NCBI RefSeq assembly: GCF_001042635.1
Contig: NZ_AP012331.1
Coordinates: forward strand, 1,612,001-1,676,000
DNA from: Bifidobacterium scardovii JCM 12489 = DSM 13734
GTDB taxonomy: Bacteria > Actinomycetota > Actinomycetes > Actinomycetales > Bifidobacteriaceae
Reading direction: 5' to 3'
Length of the DNA: 64,000 nt
Positions 4,040 through 12,485 of the stretch are shown here, one piece after another. Both the position numbers and the translations under genes were made by a program. The notes beneath the pieces are model-generated. The model was not told where the DNA came from and did no database searches. It saw nothing but the letters and a program-made list of their open reading frames with translations. Each line of letters begins with the position of its first letter. Within the stretch, counting starts at the first letter, position 1.

Positions 4040-5203
4040 TCACGCCCGCCCGGCCGGAACGCCCAGTCCCCGCAGCGCTTCGGCCGCGTCGGCCAGGGTG
4101 ATGCGCTCCTGTTCGACGCGCCGGAACGGCATGGCGGCGTCCTCGCAGAGCCGGACGTACAGCTCCCGCTCCGCCGGCCGCAGACCCGGCGCCGGCTTCG
4201 GGTCCCGCAGCGCGAGCCGTCTGCCGCGCTCGCTCAGGTCGGTGCCGTACCGGCGGTACCGCTCGTATGCGGCGCAATCCATGAACATGGAGTCGCAGTC
4301 GAGCCCCCGCTCCCGCAGCATCGAGAGGATCTCCAATCCGTCTGCGTCCATATCGCCCCAATACACGACGCGCATGTCCCGCAGCGCGGGAATCTCCGGG
4401 GCCACGGCGCCGATGGCGTCGCCGGAGCCCCAGATGCAGATGCCGTCGGGGATCGGCGGCATGTCCTGGTAGGTGTCCTTGTTCTCGATGATGACCGCGT
4501 ACCGAATTCCCGCGAGCGCCGTGCCGTTCCACGGGCACCAGGCGATGCGTTCGAGTTCGGCGTCGGCGCGCCGCGGGTCGAGGTACCGGAATCGCAGTTC
4601 GCGCGGGCGGCTCGACAGCTCCAGCGTCTCCCTGCCCAGCAGGCGGCAGATGGCTTTGCGGCGTCTGGTGTTCGATTCGTTGAGCCATTTGCCGCTGAAT
4701 CCCGTCAGCGGCACCTGCCGCGGTCTCATGCCGGCGGCGTCGTAGTCCGCGAAGTAGTGCGCCGCGGTGATCAGCAGGTCGAAGTCCAGCGCCTGCTCGT
4801 GGCCGGTCATGGCGGCCACGGCTTCGATCGTGTCCGGTTCGGCGTCGAATTCGGCGCGCAAACGGATCAGGCGGCGTCTGGCTTCGCGGTATTGCGTGGC
4901 CAGGCCGCGGCCGGCGACGCGCAGGGCCGTCGCCTCGTCGGGGACGGTGACCGCGGAGATGAGTCCGACGGCGGTGCCGATTTTCCGTTGCGTGACGGTG
5001 GTCTCGCATCCGCGCTGCCCGGCCCACTTCTTGATGTCGTTATTGTTGTTGTGCACCGCGATGGCGTGCTTCTCCAATTCGGCTCTGCCGGGCAGTCCGA
5101 CCGGCACGGTGTACGGCCAGGCCTGTTCGATGCGGTACAGGTTGGCGCGCATGTGGGCCTCCACCCGGTCGGTGATCGCGGCGACGTCCTTCGGCTCGCT
5201 CAT
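4040..5203 (-). CDS. jetD: Wadjet defence protein JetD (DUF3322/DUF2220)
   Basis: JetD is the nuclease subunit of Wadjet, which cuts small circular DNA after the JetABC motor has extruded it. The 387-residue protein has the family layout: a DUF3322-type N-terminal region and a C-terminal DUF2220 domain with a TOPRIM-like core. The acidic motif [11 protein letters not shown] lies at about 279-289, and VIIENKDTY precedes it. The start ATG ([10 protein letters not shown]) overlaps the jetC stop by 4 nt, showing translational coupling. It is the last gene of the jetABCD operon. A longer upstream frame exists but is antisense-type, low-complexity peptide inside jetC. Family function is known from work on Bacillus and E. 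coli Wadjet; activity here is inferred. Confidence 0.94.
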
Positions 5204-8200
5204 GGCCGGTCCCGGTCCTCGGCGGCGTCGGCTGCGCCGGCCGGGGCCTGCGCGCCCTCCTCCGGCCGGAGCACGGCTTCGCGCAGGGAGGTCAGCCCGG
5301 TGTCGGGGTCCTTGTAGGTGACGTAGGCCTTGGTGGACACTTCGAGGATTTCGCCGGTCTTGCTTTCGGGCGCGGAGACGATGACCTGGAAGCCGAGGCG
5401 CGGCAGCACGGTGAGGGCGCGCTGCGTGTAGCGGCCGTCGGCTTTGATGAGCGCCTCGTCGAGGAACAGGGTGGTGTACGAGGGTTCGCTGGTCATGCCG
5501 CCGCCGAGCAGGTAGATGAGCGCCGCGCCGTACACGAAGGAGGTGAGTTCCTGCAGGGCGCCGCCGGATCGGCCGCCGGTGGAGGTGATGCGCTCGTCCG
5601 GGCCGTCCTCGTGGTGGACGATCGCGTAGAACGAGGAGCGGCAGCGCGGGTCGAGGTCGCGCGCGCCGTAGCTTTTCACGCCGTTGGCGTCCTTGACCTG
5701 CGCGAGCTGGTCGCGCAGCAGGTCGATCATCGGTGCGCATGCGGCGAATGCCCGGCGCGAATCGGCGGCGCCTTGGGCCGCCGGCTCCGACTTCCAGTCG
5801 TTGAGCGTGCCGATGGCGCGGCTCAGCTGGGCCGAGAAGGCGCGTTCCGGGCGGCGCACGTCCGCGTGCAGGGACAGGCTGCCGTGCTTGGGGCCGAACT
5901 GCTGGCCTTCGAGCATCGCGTTGATGCGGTCCAGCTGGCTGCGGATGTCGCTCGCGTCCGTGTCGATCGCGCGTTTGATCGTCAGCAGGCTCATGAGCAG
6001 CTGGTCGAGGCAGCGGCGGTATTCACCGTCCGTGGCGGCGACGGCCGTCAGGCGCGACAGGCTTTCCAGTTCCTCGAGGTAGTAGCGGTAGTCCTCCACG
6101 CTGGCGGTGACGGCGTCGTCGTCGGCCGCGTAGTCGTGCAGGTACGAGTCCATGCGCGTTTCGACGCCGGCGCGCGCCACGGCGACGCGTTCGGACAGCG
6201 CGTCGACGCGCGAGGCCATGTCCTTGCCGATGCCGGCGATGACGCGTTCGGCGAACTGGTTTCCGGAGGAGGCCGCCTGCCCCGCGCCGATGATCATGTG
6301 GGCGCGCAGCGCGGGATCGTCGCCGGGGAGTTTGCCGTCGTAGGATTCGGCGAGCGCGGAGGCGACCTCGTCGTCCAGCGGCGCGGCGGCCGCGTCGGAG
6401 GGAGCCGGCCCGGCTTCCGTACCGTCGGCGCCGGCCGATGTCCCGGCGGCACCCGTCTGATGGGAGTTGAGCCATGCGCGTGCGGCGTCGGCGGCGTCGG
6501 CCGCAGCGTCGGCCGCCTGTTCGTCCTGGATGCGGTCGCGTTCGGAACGGTCGAGTTCCTCGGACAGCGAGTCCTTGAGCGCCGCGAGTTTGGCGAGTTC
6601 GGGGTCGTTCTTGATCGAGGCGATGGTCGTTTCCAGTTCCGTGACCGCCGCGGCGGCGCCGTCGGCGTCGATGCGGTCCCATGCCGTGTAGGCGAGCTGG
6701 TCGGCCAGCGTCAGGCCGCGGCGCAGCGCGTCGACCTGGCGTTTCGCGGCCGTCAGGGTCCGTTCCGTGCCGTTCGCCGTGTCCGAGGCCTGGTCGATCT
6801 GCCGTTCGAGATCGTGCAGGTAGCTTTCGTTGACGTAGCCGATGACCTGCTGGCGGTCCTTGACGCCGTGCTGGCCGCGTTTGCCGGATTTGATCTGGCC
6901 GTCGGCCTGCACCTGCCGCGTGTCGCGGTCGGCGTCGTCGATGGCGGCGACGCATCGGGCGTCGAGGCGTTCGGACCGGGTCTGTTCGCGCAGCCATCCG
7001 GCGAACGGCGATTCGTCGCGGTAGCGCAGCTTCGAAGACAGCCATGCGTCCTCCGGCGCGGCCGCCCGGTCGGCGGGCCGCGCGTCCGGGGCGTCCTCCG
7101 ACGCGGCGGCGGCCCCGTAATCGCGCGTCGTGTCGACGAACTGCCAGGTGCGGCGCGCCATCTGGTGCGGGTCGATGGTGCTCACCTTGGCGGCGAAGCC
7201 CTGTTCGTGGCGCTTGTCCACGAGGATCGTCTGCGCGATCGGCCCGTAGGCCACGTTCATGGCGAGGCGCCAGGCTTCCTCGTCCTCGCGCACGTCCATG
7301 AGTTCGGCGACGTAGGGCAGTTCGCCGGCGTCCAGTCCGGTCGCCCGGCACAGCATGGCGCGGGTCTCGTCCATCTGCCGCGAGATGCGGGTGCGCTGCG
7401 TCTTCTGCCGCTCGTAGTCGTGCCGCAGCCGCTGCAGCGTGTCGAGCGCGGCGTAGTGCGCGCGGTCGGCGGCGCTGCGTTCGGTTTCGAGTTCGGCGGC
7501 GCGCTGGTCGTATACGCGTTTGAAGTTCACGGCCTCGACGCGCCGCTGGTCCCACGCCTGTTCGCTCGCCGGCATCGTCTCGCCGACCGCGTCGAACAGT
7601 TCGGCGGTGTGCGCGCGGTTGTCGCGCACGGCGGCGAGCGTGCGCCGGCTCTGGTCGAGTTCGAATTCGAGGCGTGCGAGGTTGCCGCCGTCCAGCCCCT
7701 GCATCTGGGCGCGGATCGCGTCGATGCGTCCGCGCAGTTCCTCGCTGCGCGCGCCGGCGGCCCGGGACGCGGCCATGCGGGCGTCCCGCTCCTGCTCGTC
7801 GAGGGGCAGCTGGGCGGCCACTTCGCCGGCCATGCGGGCGATGGCCCATGCGCGCAGCGTATCGCGACCCGTCTCGCCGGCCGGGTCGACCGGGTCGAAG
7901 GCCCGCGCCGCGCCCACGGCCGCCGCATAGCCGCCATGGGCGCGTTGGATGCCCTGCAGGGCGTCCATGCGCCGGGCCTTCTGCTCCATGGTGCGGAAGT
8001 TCTCGTCGTAGCGCTCGTAGTCCTCCACGGTGGAGCGCGCCAGGTCGAGGGCCTCGGGCACGCCGAGCACGCCCTGCTTGAAGATGTCGTCGAGCCGCGA
8101 GGGCGCGTCCGCCGACTGGATCTTGTGCAGCAGCCGGCAGGCGTCGGCGCTCAGCCCCATCACGCTCCAGATGTGGGTGTGGAACGCCTCGGCGCTGGGG

Positions 8201-8778
8201 AAGGTGAGGCATTCGGGGTAGGCCGTTTTCAGCTGCGAGGGCGTGAACGCCGATTCGCGGAACCGGTCCATGGCCCGCGGGTCGATGGGCCGGTCCCATG
8301 CGACGTATTGGCGGCGCACCTCGCTGCCCTTGTCGCCGGGCATCAGGTACAGGAACTTGCCGCAGGACAGGACTTGGCCGGTCGTCGTGTTGCGGTAGGT
8401 GTCGACGATCGCTCCCCAGACGGCCTGCGGCGCGCCGTTGTCGTCCAGCCCGCGCAGGTAGATCGGCCGGTCGCCCTCGTCGGTGTTGCCGACGCCGACC
8501 ATGCCGCGCAGGTACGTGTAGTCGCTGCGTTCGGACCGGCCGGAGTTCGACGCCTTGTTGAACGGGGTGCCGGTCGGGTAGAGCAGGGAGATCTGCGCGT
8601 CGACCAGCGTGGACTTGCCCGATTCGCTGGCGCCGGCGAGCAGCGTCACCGGCAGACGGCCGTCCGTGGAGGGGCGGAATTCGTGGTATCCCTCATAGGA
8701 TCCCCAGTTGACGAGCCGGCGGGATTCCATCATCCACCGGTCCGCGATCATCTGCATGTCCTTGGCCGCCATCGTCAT
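5200..8778 (-). CDS. jetC: Wadjet SMC-like ATPase JetC
   Basis: JetC is the SMC/MukB-type motor of Wadjet. The 1192-residue protein starts with an N-terminal ATPase lobe whose Walker A is [14 protein letters not shown] at about 49-62. The middle (about 250-950) is rich in Glu, Arg and Ala and strongly predicted coiled coil, interrupted by a globular hinge-like stretch near 460-600. The C-terminal lobe contains a signature-like [13 protein letters not shown] and the Walker B-type [14 protein letters not shown]. Start ATG ([10 protein letters not shown]) overlaps the jetB stop in an ATGA. The C-terminal tail ([22 protein letters not shown]) is low complexity. Length and order match type I Wadjet; the ATPase motifs look intact, so the motor is probably functional. 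Confidence 0.94.
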
Positions 8779-9596
8779 TCCCCTTCCCCGTCGGCGGCCT
8801 CGCCGCCGAGCGCATCGTCATCGAGCGCGTCATCGCCGAACAGCGGCTCGTCGACCATGCCCGGCGAGCGCCGCCCGTTGCCGCCGTCCGGCCCGCCGCC
8901 GGGTTCGCCGGTCCCGCCGGGCTCGGCGTCCCCGTCATCGGGCCCGTCGTCGGTGCCGTCGCGCGACGGGTCGGATCCGGGCCCATCGGTCTCGTCGTCC
9001 TCGTCGGCCGCGGCGACGCCGAGCCATGCGTCGGCCAGTTCGCGGTCGAGCACCGCGGGCACGAGCGGCGTGATCCTCAGCATGGTGTCGTCGTCCAGCC
9101 GTTCGAGGTAGCCGTATGTGTTCATCGCGGAGATGAGCGCGCCGATCTGGCGGAGCACGCCCTCCTCGTCGTTGCGCGCGGACAGGTGGCCGGCGCCGGT
9201 GGCGAGCGCCGCGCGGATCTCCTCGAGGCTGACGATCCATTCGTCGGCGGCCACGCGCATGTTCTCGTATTCGAGCACGCGGATGCGCAGGAAGGCGAGC
9301 AGCGCCGCCTCCTCGCGCTTGAGGCTGGCGCGGGTTTTCAGCGAGCGCAGGGTCACGTCCTCGCCGGCCACGGGCGCGGCGTACATGATGCGGTACCGTT
9401 CGTTGATGACCGGTTCGAGCAGGTCGTTGTTGAGCGAGCGCGTGACGGCGTCGTAGTGGTCGAGCGCGAGCTCGTAGAGCGTGCCGTCGATGTAGCGTTC
9501 GCGCTTGAGCGCGATGGCGGCGCGGCGCGCGTCGGCCGGCATGTCTCCGCGGTCCCCTTCGAACAGCGCGTATGGGTTGTCGTCGCTCATGGTCAT
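8775..9596 (-). CDS. jetB: Wadjet kleisin-associated protein JetB (DUF4194)
   Basis: JetB is the KITE/MukE-like subunit that bridges the JetA kleisin and the JetC ATPase. The 273-residue protein has a helical DUF4194 region through about residue 180 (for example [52 protein letters not shown]). It ends with an unusual acidic, Gly/Asp/Pro-rich tail of about 85 residues that is likely disordered. The first ATG overlaps the jetA stop (ATGA); a second ATG six nucleotides later has a better-spaced GGAGG and is an equally good start. Position between jetA and jetC, with 4-nt overlaps at both ends, supports obligate co-translation. Confidence 0.91.
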
Positions 9597-11101
9597 CCTT
9601 CCTCCACGATGTCGTCCAGTTCGTCCGGGTCGGCCAGCACCGCCCTGGTGGTCCAGTCGCGCGGTTCGCCGCCGAGGGATACGCAGTGCCAGACCGCGGC
9701 GTCGGCGCCGTCGGCGCCGCGCAGCCCGCCGAGGAATCCGACGAGTTCGCTTTCGTGGCGTTCCGTTTCCGGCAGGCGGTTGAAGCTGGCGGCGATGTCG
9801 ACGAGCCCGCCGCGCATCACCGGGTCGCGCCGGATCTGCGTGGCCATGCGGCGCAGTCTTGGGCCGCCGTTGCCGATCAGGACGCGCAGGTCGACCGCGG
9901 CGCCGGGCGCCGGCGTGTCGTGCAGGCCGGGCGTCGCGGCCCGCGTCATGGATTTCGCCGGGCGCATCGGCAGGGGCGCGATCGGCCCGTCGGCAGTGCC
10001 GGTCGCGTAGGGGCGTGCGCCGTCGCCGGGATGCGCTCTGGCGTCCGCGCTGACGGCGGCGTACAGCCGGTTGAGCCTGGTGAGCATGGTGCGGTAGCGG
10101 GTGTCGGTCTGCTGGCCGACCAGCCGGCTGATCGCCTCGTTTGAGACGCGCATCTGGTGGCGCACCGCTTCGATGCCGTCGTAGATGCGCGCGAGCTCGT
10201 CGCGGATCTGGCCGAGCAGCGCGCCGGATTCGCCGGCCAGGTACGGGGTTTTCGCGATGTCGCGCAGCGCCTCGTCGATCTGCTGGCGGCCCTCGTCGGT
10301 GATGATCACCTGGAAGGCGTCCTCGAAGCGGCGGCCGGAATCCGATTCGCTGAAGGAGCGGCGGTATTCGTCCTGGTAGCGGGTCAGGTTCTCGTCGACG
10401 CTGATGTCGCCGGCCTGCATGCGCCGGCGCAGGGCGTCGCCGTTGTCGCGTTCGGCGAGCACGAGTTCGCGCAGGTCGATCGGCACGCCGCGCAGCGTGT
10501 TGTGCACGACGGCGATGACGTCCTCGACCTGGGCTTCGGAGAGCGTGGCGTGCTGCTGGCCCTGCTGGATGCGCTTGATCTCGTGCTTGCGGTCCTTTAT
10601 CTCGCGGTTGAGCAGCCTGATCCGCTCCCCGGGGTCGGCGGTCAGCTGCATGCGCGCGTGCTCGATCTCCATGATGATGCTGTTGGCCTGCGCGCCGGAG
10701 AGGGTGCGCGACTCGTCCTCGAGCCGGCCCAGCGCCTCGATGGCCCGGTGGGCGCGGGCGGTGAGCCGGTAGAGGAATCTGTGCGAGGCGGCGTCGTGGG
10801 CGTTGGCGAGCCATGCATAGTCGCCTTCGCCCTCGCGCGTCAGGTCGGCGAGGATGCGGTGCGCCGCATCGGCGAAGGTCTGGTCCTCGCGCAGCGCGTA
10901 TTCGCCGGCGTCGGCCAGCGCGGACAGGCTCTGCGCGAAGCGCTCCTCGAGCGTCTCGCGCGGCAACTCGCCGGTGAGCGGGTCGAACGCGGCGCGCAGC
11001 AGCGCCACATAGGTCATGGAATGCTGGCGCAGCAGCAGACGGAGCACGCCGGTTTCGTAGACCGGGCGCAGCCGTTCCATTTCCCGTCTCACATCGGCCA
11101 C
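9593..11101 (-). CDS. jetA: Wadjet kleisin-like protein JetA (DUF3375)
   Basis: JetA is the kleisin/MukF-like subunit that closes the Wadjet SMC ring. The protein, about 502 residues, is almost entirely helical and matches DUF3375 (early [22 protein letters not shown], central [20 protein letters not shown]). It is the first gene of jetABCD. I prefer the GTG at 11099-11101 because AGGAGG sits 6 nt upstream of it; ATGs at 11116 or 11080 are alternatives. The open frame continues far upstream, but there it only reads through the palindromic repeats at 11181-11370 and gives repeated non-protein-like peptides. Confidence 0.92.
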
Positions 11102-11180
11102 AGCACGCCTCCTCATTCCCGTGGAGGCTCCATGGTAGCCGAAGGCCCGGCCCGCGCGTGTCAGCCGGGCGGCGGGACGG

Positions 11181-11370
11181 GCCGGTATTCCCGGGTTATA
11201 CACGCCAAGCGGCCTCTGCGCGTGTATACCTCGGGAGTACCGGCGGGCAACTCTCGGGTTCCACACGCGAAACGACCCCAATCCGTGTATGACCCGGGAG
11301 TACCGTCCGGCAAACCCCGGGTTATACACGCGCAGAGACGGTTTTGCGTGTGAAACCCGGGAGTTGCCGG
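11181..11370. repeat. Three tandem large imperfect palindromes upstream of jetA
   Basis: Three consecutive inverted repeats of about 54-74 nt occupy 11181-11244, 11245-11318 and 11317-11370. Each arm carries a variant of the half-site CCGGGTTATACACGC; this 15-mer is identical at 11191-11205 and 11327-11341, with inverted variants ending in CGGGAGTACCGG or CGGGAGTTGCCGG. Each unit can fold as a long hairpin. They lie between the jetA start and the permease remnant, so they could be the Wadjet operon's 5' leader or operator region, or a bifidobacterial interspersed repeat. No terminator-like T-run follows. Confidence 0.85.
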
Positions 11371-11388
11371 GCCTATGGGACGGGCCGG

Positions 11389-11484
11389 CTATTCGCCGCG
11401 CAGGGCTTCGGTCGGGGTGAGGCGGGCGGCACGGGAAGCCGGGTAGAGGCCCGCGAGGATGCCGACGAGCACGGCCGCGTCCCG
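11389..11484 (-). pseudogene. 3' remnant of a FtsX/MacB-type ABC permease
   Basis: The minus-strand frame ending in TAG at 11389-11391 reads AVLVGILAGLYPASRAARLTPTEALRGE. That is the hallmark C-terminus of FtsX-like permeases of MacB-type ABC exporters (last transmembrane helix, then GLYPAxxAARLxPxEALR-E). Nothing upstream in this frame continues the family; the sequence passes into an unrelated plus-strand fragment within about 60 nt. I read this as the tail of a gene whose body was deleted. Its neighbour is a histidine-kinase tail, as expected if a two-component/ABC locus once stood here. Confidence 0.72.
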
Positions 11485-11541
11485 TGCCGGCGCAGCCTCC
11501 GACCCTCCCCCAGTGCCTCCTCCACGGGCTCCGGAGGATGG

Positions 11542-11775
11542 ATGATCACCGTCGTCAACACCACCGACGAGATGCTGCCCGACGATCTGAACGAACTCGT
11601 CCAGCCGTTCCGCCGCGGAGAGAACTCGCGTATCAGCGCCGTGCCCGGCGTGGGACTCGGCCTGTCGATCGCACAGGCCGCCACCGGCGCGATGGGCGCG
11701 ACACTGCGTCTCAGCCGCCCCGATACAGCCCATTTCGCCGCCGAGATCCGGCTGGATATGAGCCGCCGTCACTAG
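11542..11775 (+). pseudogene. 3' remnant of a sensor histidine kinase (HATPase domain)
   Basis: This 77-codon segment reads as the end of a histidine-kinase ATPase domain. MITVVNTTDEMLPDDLNELVQPFRRGEN is the G1/F-box-type stretch and GVGLGLSIAQAATGAMGATL the G2 box, and it ends in a short tail before TAG. The dimerisation/phosphoacceptor domain and the N box are missing, so it cannot be an active kinase. The ATG at its start is only the first in frame. Together with the adjacent permease tail it marks decay or deletion of a two-component/ABC locus next to the Wadjet operon. Confidence 0.72.
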
Positions 11776-11894
11776 CGCGTCCGCGGGCTTCTTATGCCAT
11801 GAGACACAGCCTCGCTGAAGGAACCGCCGCATCATGCCGCAACACGCACCGTCGCATCCTCGTATTCATCCCCGATCCGCCGCGCGATGCCGCT

Positions 11895-12417
11895 TCCACC
11901 GCACACCATTGCCTCCTCCGCGCGATGATGCTTCGCCATCCGATAATGTCTCCACCGCGCACCATTGCTTCCACCACGCGGCAACCCATCCACCGCGCAC
12001 CATCGATCCCACCACGCGGTAATGCTTCCACGGCGCGGTCCGCCGCCGCACGGCATCCGCGGCATTCCGCCATTCCTGCCATCACGCCGTGGATGGTTTA
12101 CCGCGCCGTGGACGATTTACCACGCGGTGGACGGGTTCCGCGCCGTAGATGATCTACCACGTCATGAACGACTGGCATCGCCGTGGATACCTTAACGCGC
12201 GGTGGATGCTTCACTGCGATCATGTCTCCACCACGCACCATTGATCCCACCGCGAAGTAATGTTCCCACGGCGCGGTTCACCGCCGCACGGCATCCGCGC
12301 CATTCCGCCATTCCTACTATCACGCCGTGGATGGGTTACCGCGCCGTGGACGACTTGGCGCGCGGTGGATGGCGCTGCGTCGTGGAAGGCTCATTACCCA
12401 GTGGATGCCTCACCCGC
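11895..12417. repeat. Non-coding array of 19-bp units in alternating inverted blocks
   Basis: About 20 degenerate units of 19 bp (rarely 17, 18 or 20) lie in four blocks. Block 1 (11895-12035) holds minus-oriented units such as TCCACCGCGCACCATTGCT. Block 2 (12086-12217) holds plus-oriented units such as GCCGTGGATGGTTTACCGC. Block 3 (12227-12275) is minus again and block 4 (12324-12417) plus. A conserved GC-rich spacer separates 1 from 2 and 3 from 4, so about 137 bp (11997-12135) is a direct duplicate of 12236-12375. Each unit is itself a weak dyad (GCGGT, nine bases, ACCGC). The period is not a multiple of three and all frames are open, so it is not coding. I do not recognise it. Confidence 0.88.
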
Positions 12418-12485
12418 GCAGCGGAAGGACGAACGCACAATGAATGCGGTATCACGTGATTGCGCGGTGGGCGCGCCGCCGCAGG

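Follow-up and report, generated by a model that had tools for sequence, protein, structure and literature searches.

The window analysed here is a stretch of 64,000 nucleotides that covers positions 1,612,001-1,676,000 of the single 3,158,347-bp chromosome of Bifidobacterium scardovii JCM 12489T (PMC4392160). Its minus strand carries a Wadjet operon, recognized with PADLOC profiles as JetC/JetB/JetA (5200-11329). To the right of the operon and to the left of the array that is the subject of this work lies a HATPase_c fragment (histidine-kinase ATPase domain; 11344-11775, plus strand). Directly upstream of jetA, between this gene and the array, we found a second, unrelated array of three 63-bp inverted repeats (CCCGGGTTATACACGC..GCGTGTATAC..; 11189..11377), hereafter type 2, which runs into the predicted start of the JetA ORF, so that this start is probably placed too early. 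A preliminary description of the locus, made from the letters alone, had placed a Wadjet operon beside the array and no Rep gene next to it; both statements agree with the profile matches, the neighbours being JetABC, the HATPase fragment, VanY and Peptidase_C15.

The array had been described as a 19-bp periodicity at 11895-12417. With a unit matrix built from 51 units of seven further array regions in the same genome, this interval contained 17 units scoring 6 bits or more, as compared with 500 dinucleotide shuffles that averaged 0.12 and never exceeded 1, and the self-identity of the array at lag 19 was 0.464 versus 0.276 in shuffles (sd 0.020). The periodicity is thus real, and the spacing and orientation of the units exceed those of shuffled sequence. 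The remainder of the 64-kb window contained only 7 scattered unit hits, the best with 14.0 bits, while the units of the array reach 29.7 bits. The unit consists of an 11-bp imperfect dyad (CCRCGnnGTGG), the weak dyad noticed earlier, and an 8-nt spacer that is AT-richer. No unit start of at least 6 bits was found in 11861-11943, and the final unit ends at 12432, past the interval given before; the units and cores thus occupy 11,944-12,432, in the order of five minus units, a 43-bp core, six plus units, three minus units, another 43-bp core and four plus units.

The left wing of module A (11944..12038, minus strand) comprises 5 units with a step of exactly 19 bp (starts 11944, 11963, 11982, 12001 and 12020; scores 8.0-29.7 bits by the matrix from other loci). 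It is followed by the core (12039..12081, minus-strand reading ...GGAATGGCGGAATGCCGCGGATGCC...; profile match G000:C1:1624005-1624117, minus strand, E 3.1e-22, where G000 is the B. scardovii genome), whose sequence is kept across the genus, and by the right wing (12082..12213, plus strand) with 6 units starting at 12082, 12101, 12120, 12138, 12176 and 12195, while the 19-bp stretch at 12157-12175 scores below 6 bits. Module B repeats this plan, with a left wing of 3 units (12220..12276, minus strand; starts 12220, 12239 and 12258), a core (12277..12319; profile match G000:C1:1624243-1624354, minus strand, E 1.5e-20) and a right wing of 4 units (12320..12432, plus strand; starts 12320, 12339, 12375 and 12414). 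The blocks do alternate between minus and plus, as reported, and the conserved spacer recorded between them occurs twice with a length of 43 bp; the apparent alternation, however, is that of two tandem copies of one module (wing, core, inverted wing). In line with this reading, 146 nt (11989..12134) are directly duplicated at 12227-12372 with 88% identity, 238 bp apart; a direct duplication had been noted, its length and distance (~137 bp, 239 bp) differing from these values. The large inverted structures proposed for the region are present as well (arms of, e.g., 47-50 nt, 72-81% complementary), and the strand folds better as DNA than 100 shuffles (z -4.7). The region is neither a CRISPR, its units being degenerate and set in inverted blocks instead of identical repeats with unique spacers, nor a coding repeat, with no conserved protein gene found in its place in relatives, and it matched no Rfam family at the gathering score of the family.

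The genome search suggested in the preliminary description revealed a genome- and genus-wide element. A first blastn search of the array against 39 genomes yielded 38 matches within B. scardovii itself, and two further genomes had a single weak match each. The alignment of modules demonstrated that the supposed spacer is a conserved core, AAAAtGGCGGAATTCCGC, toward which the wings point, and the element can therefore be defined as convergent wings of 19-bp units around a core of ~44 bp. The sequence profile R1, derived for this element, identified 19 modules at 10 loci of the B. scardovii chromosome (~183, 609, 1168, 1215.5, 1217.9, 1449, 1624, 2074.7, 2078 and 2663.6 kb). Within the genus, 37 of 112 genomes match R1 at E<=0.01, and 21 of the 112 have at least 9 matches (both strands counted, with up to 32 candidates per genome scored among the matches listed). 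The broader profile R2 was applied to 19 chosen genomes. Ten array-rich ones had 9-48 matches; G071 had 20, G062 had 5 and G065 had 2, and no match was obtained in G041, G092, G020, G098, G043 and G081. The 20 matches of G071 are weak; in the same genome, locus L099 has a core-like palindrome that carries single inverted arms of 16 bp, next to a GTCATCCCGAGCGGAG-type repeat. The matches listed for the single contigs of G050 and G072 are interrupted in the middle third (at 0.67-1.59 Mb and 0.89-1.58 Mb, respectively), an interruption that the own genome does not have.

At the level of the order, 5 of 248 evenly drawn genomes had a match. Four of them belong to this genus, and the match in the fifth, from another genus of the same family, is weak and restricted to the core. 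At the sensitivity used, the element appears to be limited to the family and patchily distributed. Searches of plasmids with three arrays (the own, G080 and G067 types) returned no array-like match, the hits having an E-value of 0.3 over 30-52 nt, and searches of phages with two arrays (own and G080) likewise returned none. The only low E-value among phages (7e-6) falls in an inovirus attachment-protein gene and was taken for a coding repeat, and an origin from plasmids or phages was rejected; scans of viral contigs gave one core-like match without wings, and none for the G080 unit type. A scan for 19-bp patterns reported 22 stretches, of which those in L035, L048, L030, L031 and L044 were inspected. 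The tandem repeats of 19 bp in L035 (Arthrobacter bambusae) and in L048 and L030 (Brevibacterium) (CCCGCGTCGTGGTTCCCTT; GCGGGAATGCGACCACCCC) are superficially alike, with no core or inverted wing in the stretches inspected. We found no description of the element in the literature as represented by titles and abstract openings, mostly of papers outside subscription; in two papers on repeats, the terms "bifidobacter" and "actinobacter" are absent from PMC3733652, and "actinobacter" is absent from PMC2817692.

JetA is found in 60 of the 112 genomes of the genus; among the 21 that are array-rich it is present in 18 (Fisher p 0.0008), an enrichment that perhaps reflects genome size. The three array-rich genomes with no JetA match are G050, G051 and the 74%-complete G083. 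Wadjet was considered as a partner of the array and rejected, given that JetA is missing in G050 and G051 and that annotated array loci have other neighbours; the adjacency of the two in the window looks incidental.

While the 19-bp step and the core are constant, the letters of the unit vary by species. B. scardovii has units of the CCACGGCGCGGTAA type, G056/G096/G021 have CCACGGTGTGGCAA, G080/G093/G005 have CCCACGGTGTAGGGA, G072 has CATGGGGCGGTAA and G051/G094 have CCATCGCGCGGTGA; two unit types within one genome were observed in G072 and in G076 and G017. The positions, on the other hand, are often shared. In a subset of the known arrays, comprising 120 arrays in 116 loci examined with their flanks, 72 of the 120 have an orthologous partner in another species, as judged by a shared flanking protein of at least 65% identity (some orthology clusters rest on paralogues of 25-38% identity, the count of 72 using the 65% limit). 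An array at aspS, for instance, is present in G000, G096, G080, G093, G072, G051 and G094, and its unit type differs between the groups.

Wings were compared after removal of the duplicate G013 array L087, and with L094 carrying no array index. Two loci from the same genome have wings with an identity of 0.729 (n=568); for orthologous loci in two genomes the value is 0.615 (n=96), and for all other pairs it is 0.574 (n=7452). In 42 genome pairs that differ in unit type, orthology made no difference to the likeness of the wings (0.562 for orthologous and 0.563 for other wings), whereas orthologous cores are more alike than others, by a small difference (0.759 vs 0.733, permutation p 0.014); in 11 genome pairs of like type both the wings and the cores of orthologous loci are more alike. 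The wings therefore change together across a genome, while the positions and, slightly, the cores are inherited. Since wings are alike within a genome and differ between genomes even where the loci are orthologous, a trans-acting factor or recombination must rewrite them in concert. The centre of the module is better conserved than the outer units. Of 60 modules selected, alignment A2 includes 53. Whole arrays could not be demonstrated to evolve more slowly than the sequence flanking them (means 0.76 vs 0.64-0.73, medians 0.74 vs 0.73-0.89, the near flanks being often coding).

The best candidate for a factor that could rewrite the wings is a protein of ~320 aa, modelled as an AbiEi-like domain and a nuclease domain. 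In its predicted structure both the AbiEi fold and the fold of the catalytic domain of I-Bth0305I are found, the predicted nuclease domain being closest to this homing endonuclease and to Vsr. The motif E[YF]DG[DE]xH..RD is kept in 43 of 51 close homologues, as the putative counterpart of the E..D-x-H..D residues of 3r3p. In all nine genomes where the gene could be placed, it ends no more than 112 bp from an array, always at the aspS locus (8 of the 9 loci had been chosen because of their arrays), and 7 of 8 genes have an array on the 5' side as well, 39-2410 bp away. All nine adjacencies being at aspS, they are one inherited association and not nine. The nuclease-like protein is 99% identical between G080 and G093 and 90% between G051 and G094; judged from these sequences it is not fast-evolving within a unit-type group, which slightly lowers our confidence in a repeat-plus-nuclease relationship. 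The overall Mantel correlation between nuclease and wing distances (r 0.69, p 0.0016) is due to these two close pairs; between unit types there was no correlation (r -0.04, n 15), and co-evolution of nuclease and wings was not found beyond the close pairs.

We consider it fairly probable that the array in the window belongs to a dispersed repeat which coexists with a resident nuclease-like protein, in a manner comparable to REP sequences and their RAYT, and that it is itself a non-autonomous copy. The protein would bind the units of its own species via the AbiEi-like part and nick or cut in the core or close to it. Other copies would serve as templates for the repair, which, together with slippage of units, would then spread the current unit type over old loci, and this inferred cleavage-driven homogenisation would result in concerted, species-specific wings on older cores. 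Most loci, including that in the window, would be non-autonomous. The "selfish repeat" of the preliminary description, one of its three guesses, comes closest to this model.

In independent cases observed here, distant relatives of the nuclease-like protein adjoin other repeat families. The type-2 family of the window recurs at four further loci of the genome (~984, 1432, 2912 and 3048 kb), and the array at 1,432 kb ends 8 bp from the stop codon of a distant nuclease-like paralogue. In G018, which has no R1 match, a locus selected on other grounds encodes a relative of 31% identity with the motif EYQGSQH, not EYDGDxH, which is followed ~30 bp after its stop codon by an inverted repeat around AACGGCGGAATGATC that differs in sequence. 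Contig C12 of G076 encodes a relative of the type-2 paralogue that has inverted repeats on either side, with a 62-bp spacing and letters unlike those of the type-2 family, and in G093 a nuclease-like paralogue is flanked on both sides by direct repeats of 114+74 nt that contain inverted repeats, a third family with TGCCACGCCAGCGCAA units (L126:3397-3580 and 4807-4989). The type-2 proteins retain E[YFV]DG in 76 of 84 cases and D-x-H in none of the 84, and may therefore act differently from the type-1 nuclease-like protein. Many named type-2 proteins of Bifidobacterium (P0059-P0131) appear in public records as "CTP synthase", others as members of the AbiEi family; the former name is likely a propagated mis-annotation. 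We tentatively suggest, as a possibility that we hold to be rather less probable than the model for the 19-bp array itself, that there are several parallel repeat-plus-nuclease systems, in which single-locus AbiEi-like Vsr/EDxHD nucleases would each rewrite their own dispersed inverted-repeat family genome-wide. If this is so, the systems would be the bacterial equivalent of PRDM9-like or centromere-like sites that co-evolve, with cutting and repair as the driving force and not transposition.

Alternatively, the arrays could be architectural or regulatory sites of a DNA-binding protein, such as a nucleoid organiser or an insulator, with the nuclease-like gene as a mere neighbour or an autoregulated user. 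Several observations fit this explanation. The arrays are intergenic with few exceptions, and the clearest case lies outside both predicted neighbouring transcripts. With gene orientations counted by a coarse gene finder, 113 arrays comprise 57 in tandem, 26 in convergent and 6 in divergent spacers; another 22 are placed at the edge of a locus, and 2 fall within a predicted ORF. The 157 other spacers of the same loci are tandem in 103, convergent in 24 and divergent in 30 cases; arrays thus favour convergent spacers and avoid divergent ones. They persist at orthologous loci across diverged species, and in 15 orthologous pairs from close species (some of which share a member, pairs below 0.68 identity being left out) the identity is 0.90-0.96 for the unit dyads and 0.96 for the core, compared with 0.80-0.85 for the unit spacers. 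Tolerated selfish repeats, however, would avoid promoters too; the wings shift in concert between species and the cores less so, and six relatives have zero R2 matches, so that an essential chromosome function is unlikely; and distant nuclease relatives adjoin other repeat families. We therefore regard the architectural explanation as unlikely, though worth keeping in mind.

Transposition of the MITE type, in which a transposase would have moved or copied the modules and the likeness within a genome would reflect recent spread, agrees with copies that are dispersed and patchy among species, with wings that are mutually inverted, and with the sufU-glgC spacer, where a profile check of all 30 loci (14 of them, the own included, without a pair of aligned flanks) matched the own locus alone, and no module was found in any of the 29 loci of relatives; the spacer measures 89-197 bp in the 16 relatives with both flanks aligned. 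Neither a polymorphic insertion nor a target-site duplication was seen among the loci, and there was no close empty site for comparison. The orthologous positions of 72 of the 120 arrays, some of them between species of differing wing type, speak against this explanation, as do the slightly locus-specific cores, which recent insertion does not predict, and the better conservation of the centre than of the outer units. In addition, the Y1 transposase (RAYT) family PF01797, which was considered as the partner enzyme and rejected, has no match in the own genome and is found in 7 of the 112 genomes of the genus. We consider transposition of this kind improbable.

It is very improbable, in our estimation, that the element acts in RNA, with the core (AAAA..GGCGGAATTCCGCC..TTTT in several species) ending transcripts from both sides and the units acting in 3' UTRs. 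The core is indeed palindromic and terminator-like in several genomes. Nonetheless, many cores have lost the dyad and yet keep their sequence (AAAATGGCTTTATTCCGC), and at several own loci, inspected by eye, the neighbouring genes are followed by terminator-like hairpins that precede the array; the array of the sufU-glgC spacer is enclosed by hairpins resembling the terminators of both genes. Folding 38 modules together as RNA gave a weak consensus (-9.66 kcal/mol, with a covariation term of -0.82), though 7 of 15 pairs show double changes. Because of the placement beyond the hairpins of the genes and the weak consensus fold, we read the array as a DNA element and not an RNA element. Finally, the fossil replication or partition site of a plasmid, another of the early guesses, is scarcely credible in spite of the iteron-like period and the two direct-repeat clusters around a core, since the array occurs at ten loci of one chromosome, is well formed in other species and has no plasmid match for three array types.

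The model of a repeat living with a nuclease-like protein invites comparison with known systems. Plasmid iterons and centromeres (R1 parC, pSK41, RK2) are likewise built of head-to-tail sites of 11-22 bp in blocks around a core, but the arrays described here are chromosomal and multi-locus, their wings are inverted to each other, and no Rep or Par gene is present among the annotated neighbours of arrays. Among the Vsr, DUF559 and REase_MTES_1575 endonuclease-like proteins, Vsr repairs T:G mismatches, and we know of no repeat partner for it; for the nuclease-like protein described here no role in T:G mismatch repair is indicated. Unlike the AbiEi antitoxin of type IV toxin-antitoxin systems, its AbiEi-like part is fused to a nuclease domain. 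With respect to the EDxHD homing endonuclease I-Bth0305I, it differs in lying outside any intron or gene, at the single aspS locus and with many dispersed repeats, and its cutting is a prediction; the confinement of the gene to aspS speaks against classical homing of the gene itself.

The closest parallel is REP/BIME-RAYT, in which short palindromic repeats of alternating orientation are likewise scattered outside genes and an enzyme gene stands beside the repeats, here a different enzyme (9 of 9 placed genes). According to PMC2817692, the gene of the REP enzyme is located among its repeats, is fast-evolving and apparently coevolves with them, and more than 100 copies are usual. The system described here differs in the number of arrays, which is about ten to a few tens per genome, in the arrangement of 11-bp dyads head-to-tail every 19 bp converging on a core of ~44 bp, and in the linked protein with its predicted AbiEi-like and EDxHD/Vsr-like fold. 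Since the defining RAYT was looked for and not found, we regard the system as one that may work like REP/RAYT without being a member, and there is a fair chance that its mechanism is new.

Short repeats scattered between bacterial genes have largely been discussed in terms of RAYT transposases, whereas here dispersed iteron-like arrays are paired with an enzyme of another fold. The concerted change of many loci at orthologous sites is, moreover, a question usually pursued in eukaryotic satellites. If the model proposed here is true, it would provide a function for a DUF559/AbiEi-like class of proteins currently named "endonuclease domain-containing", "DUF559 domain-containing" or even "CTP synthase".
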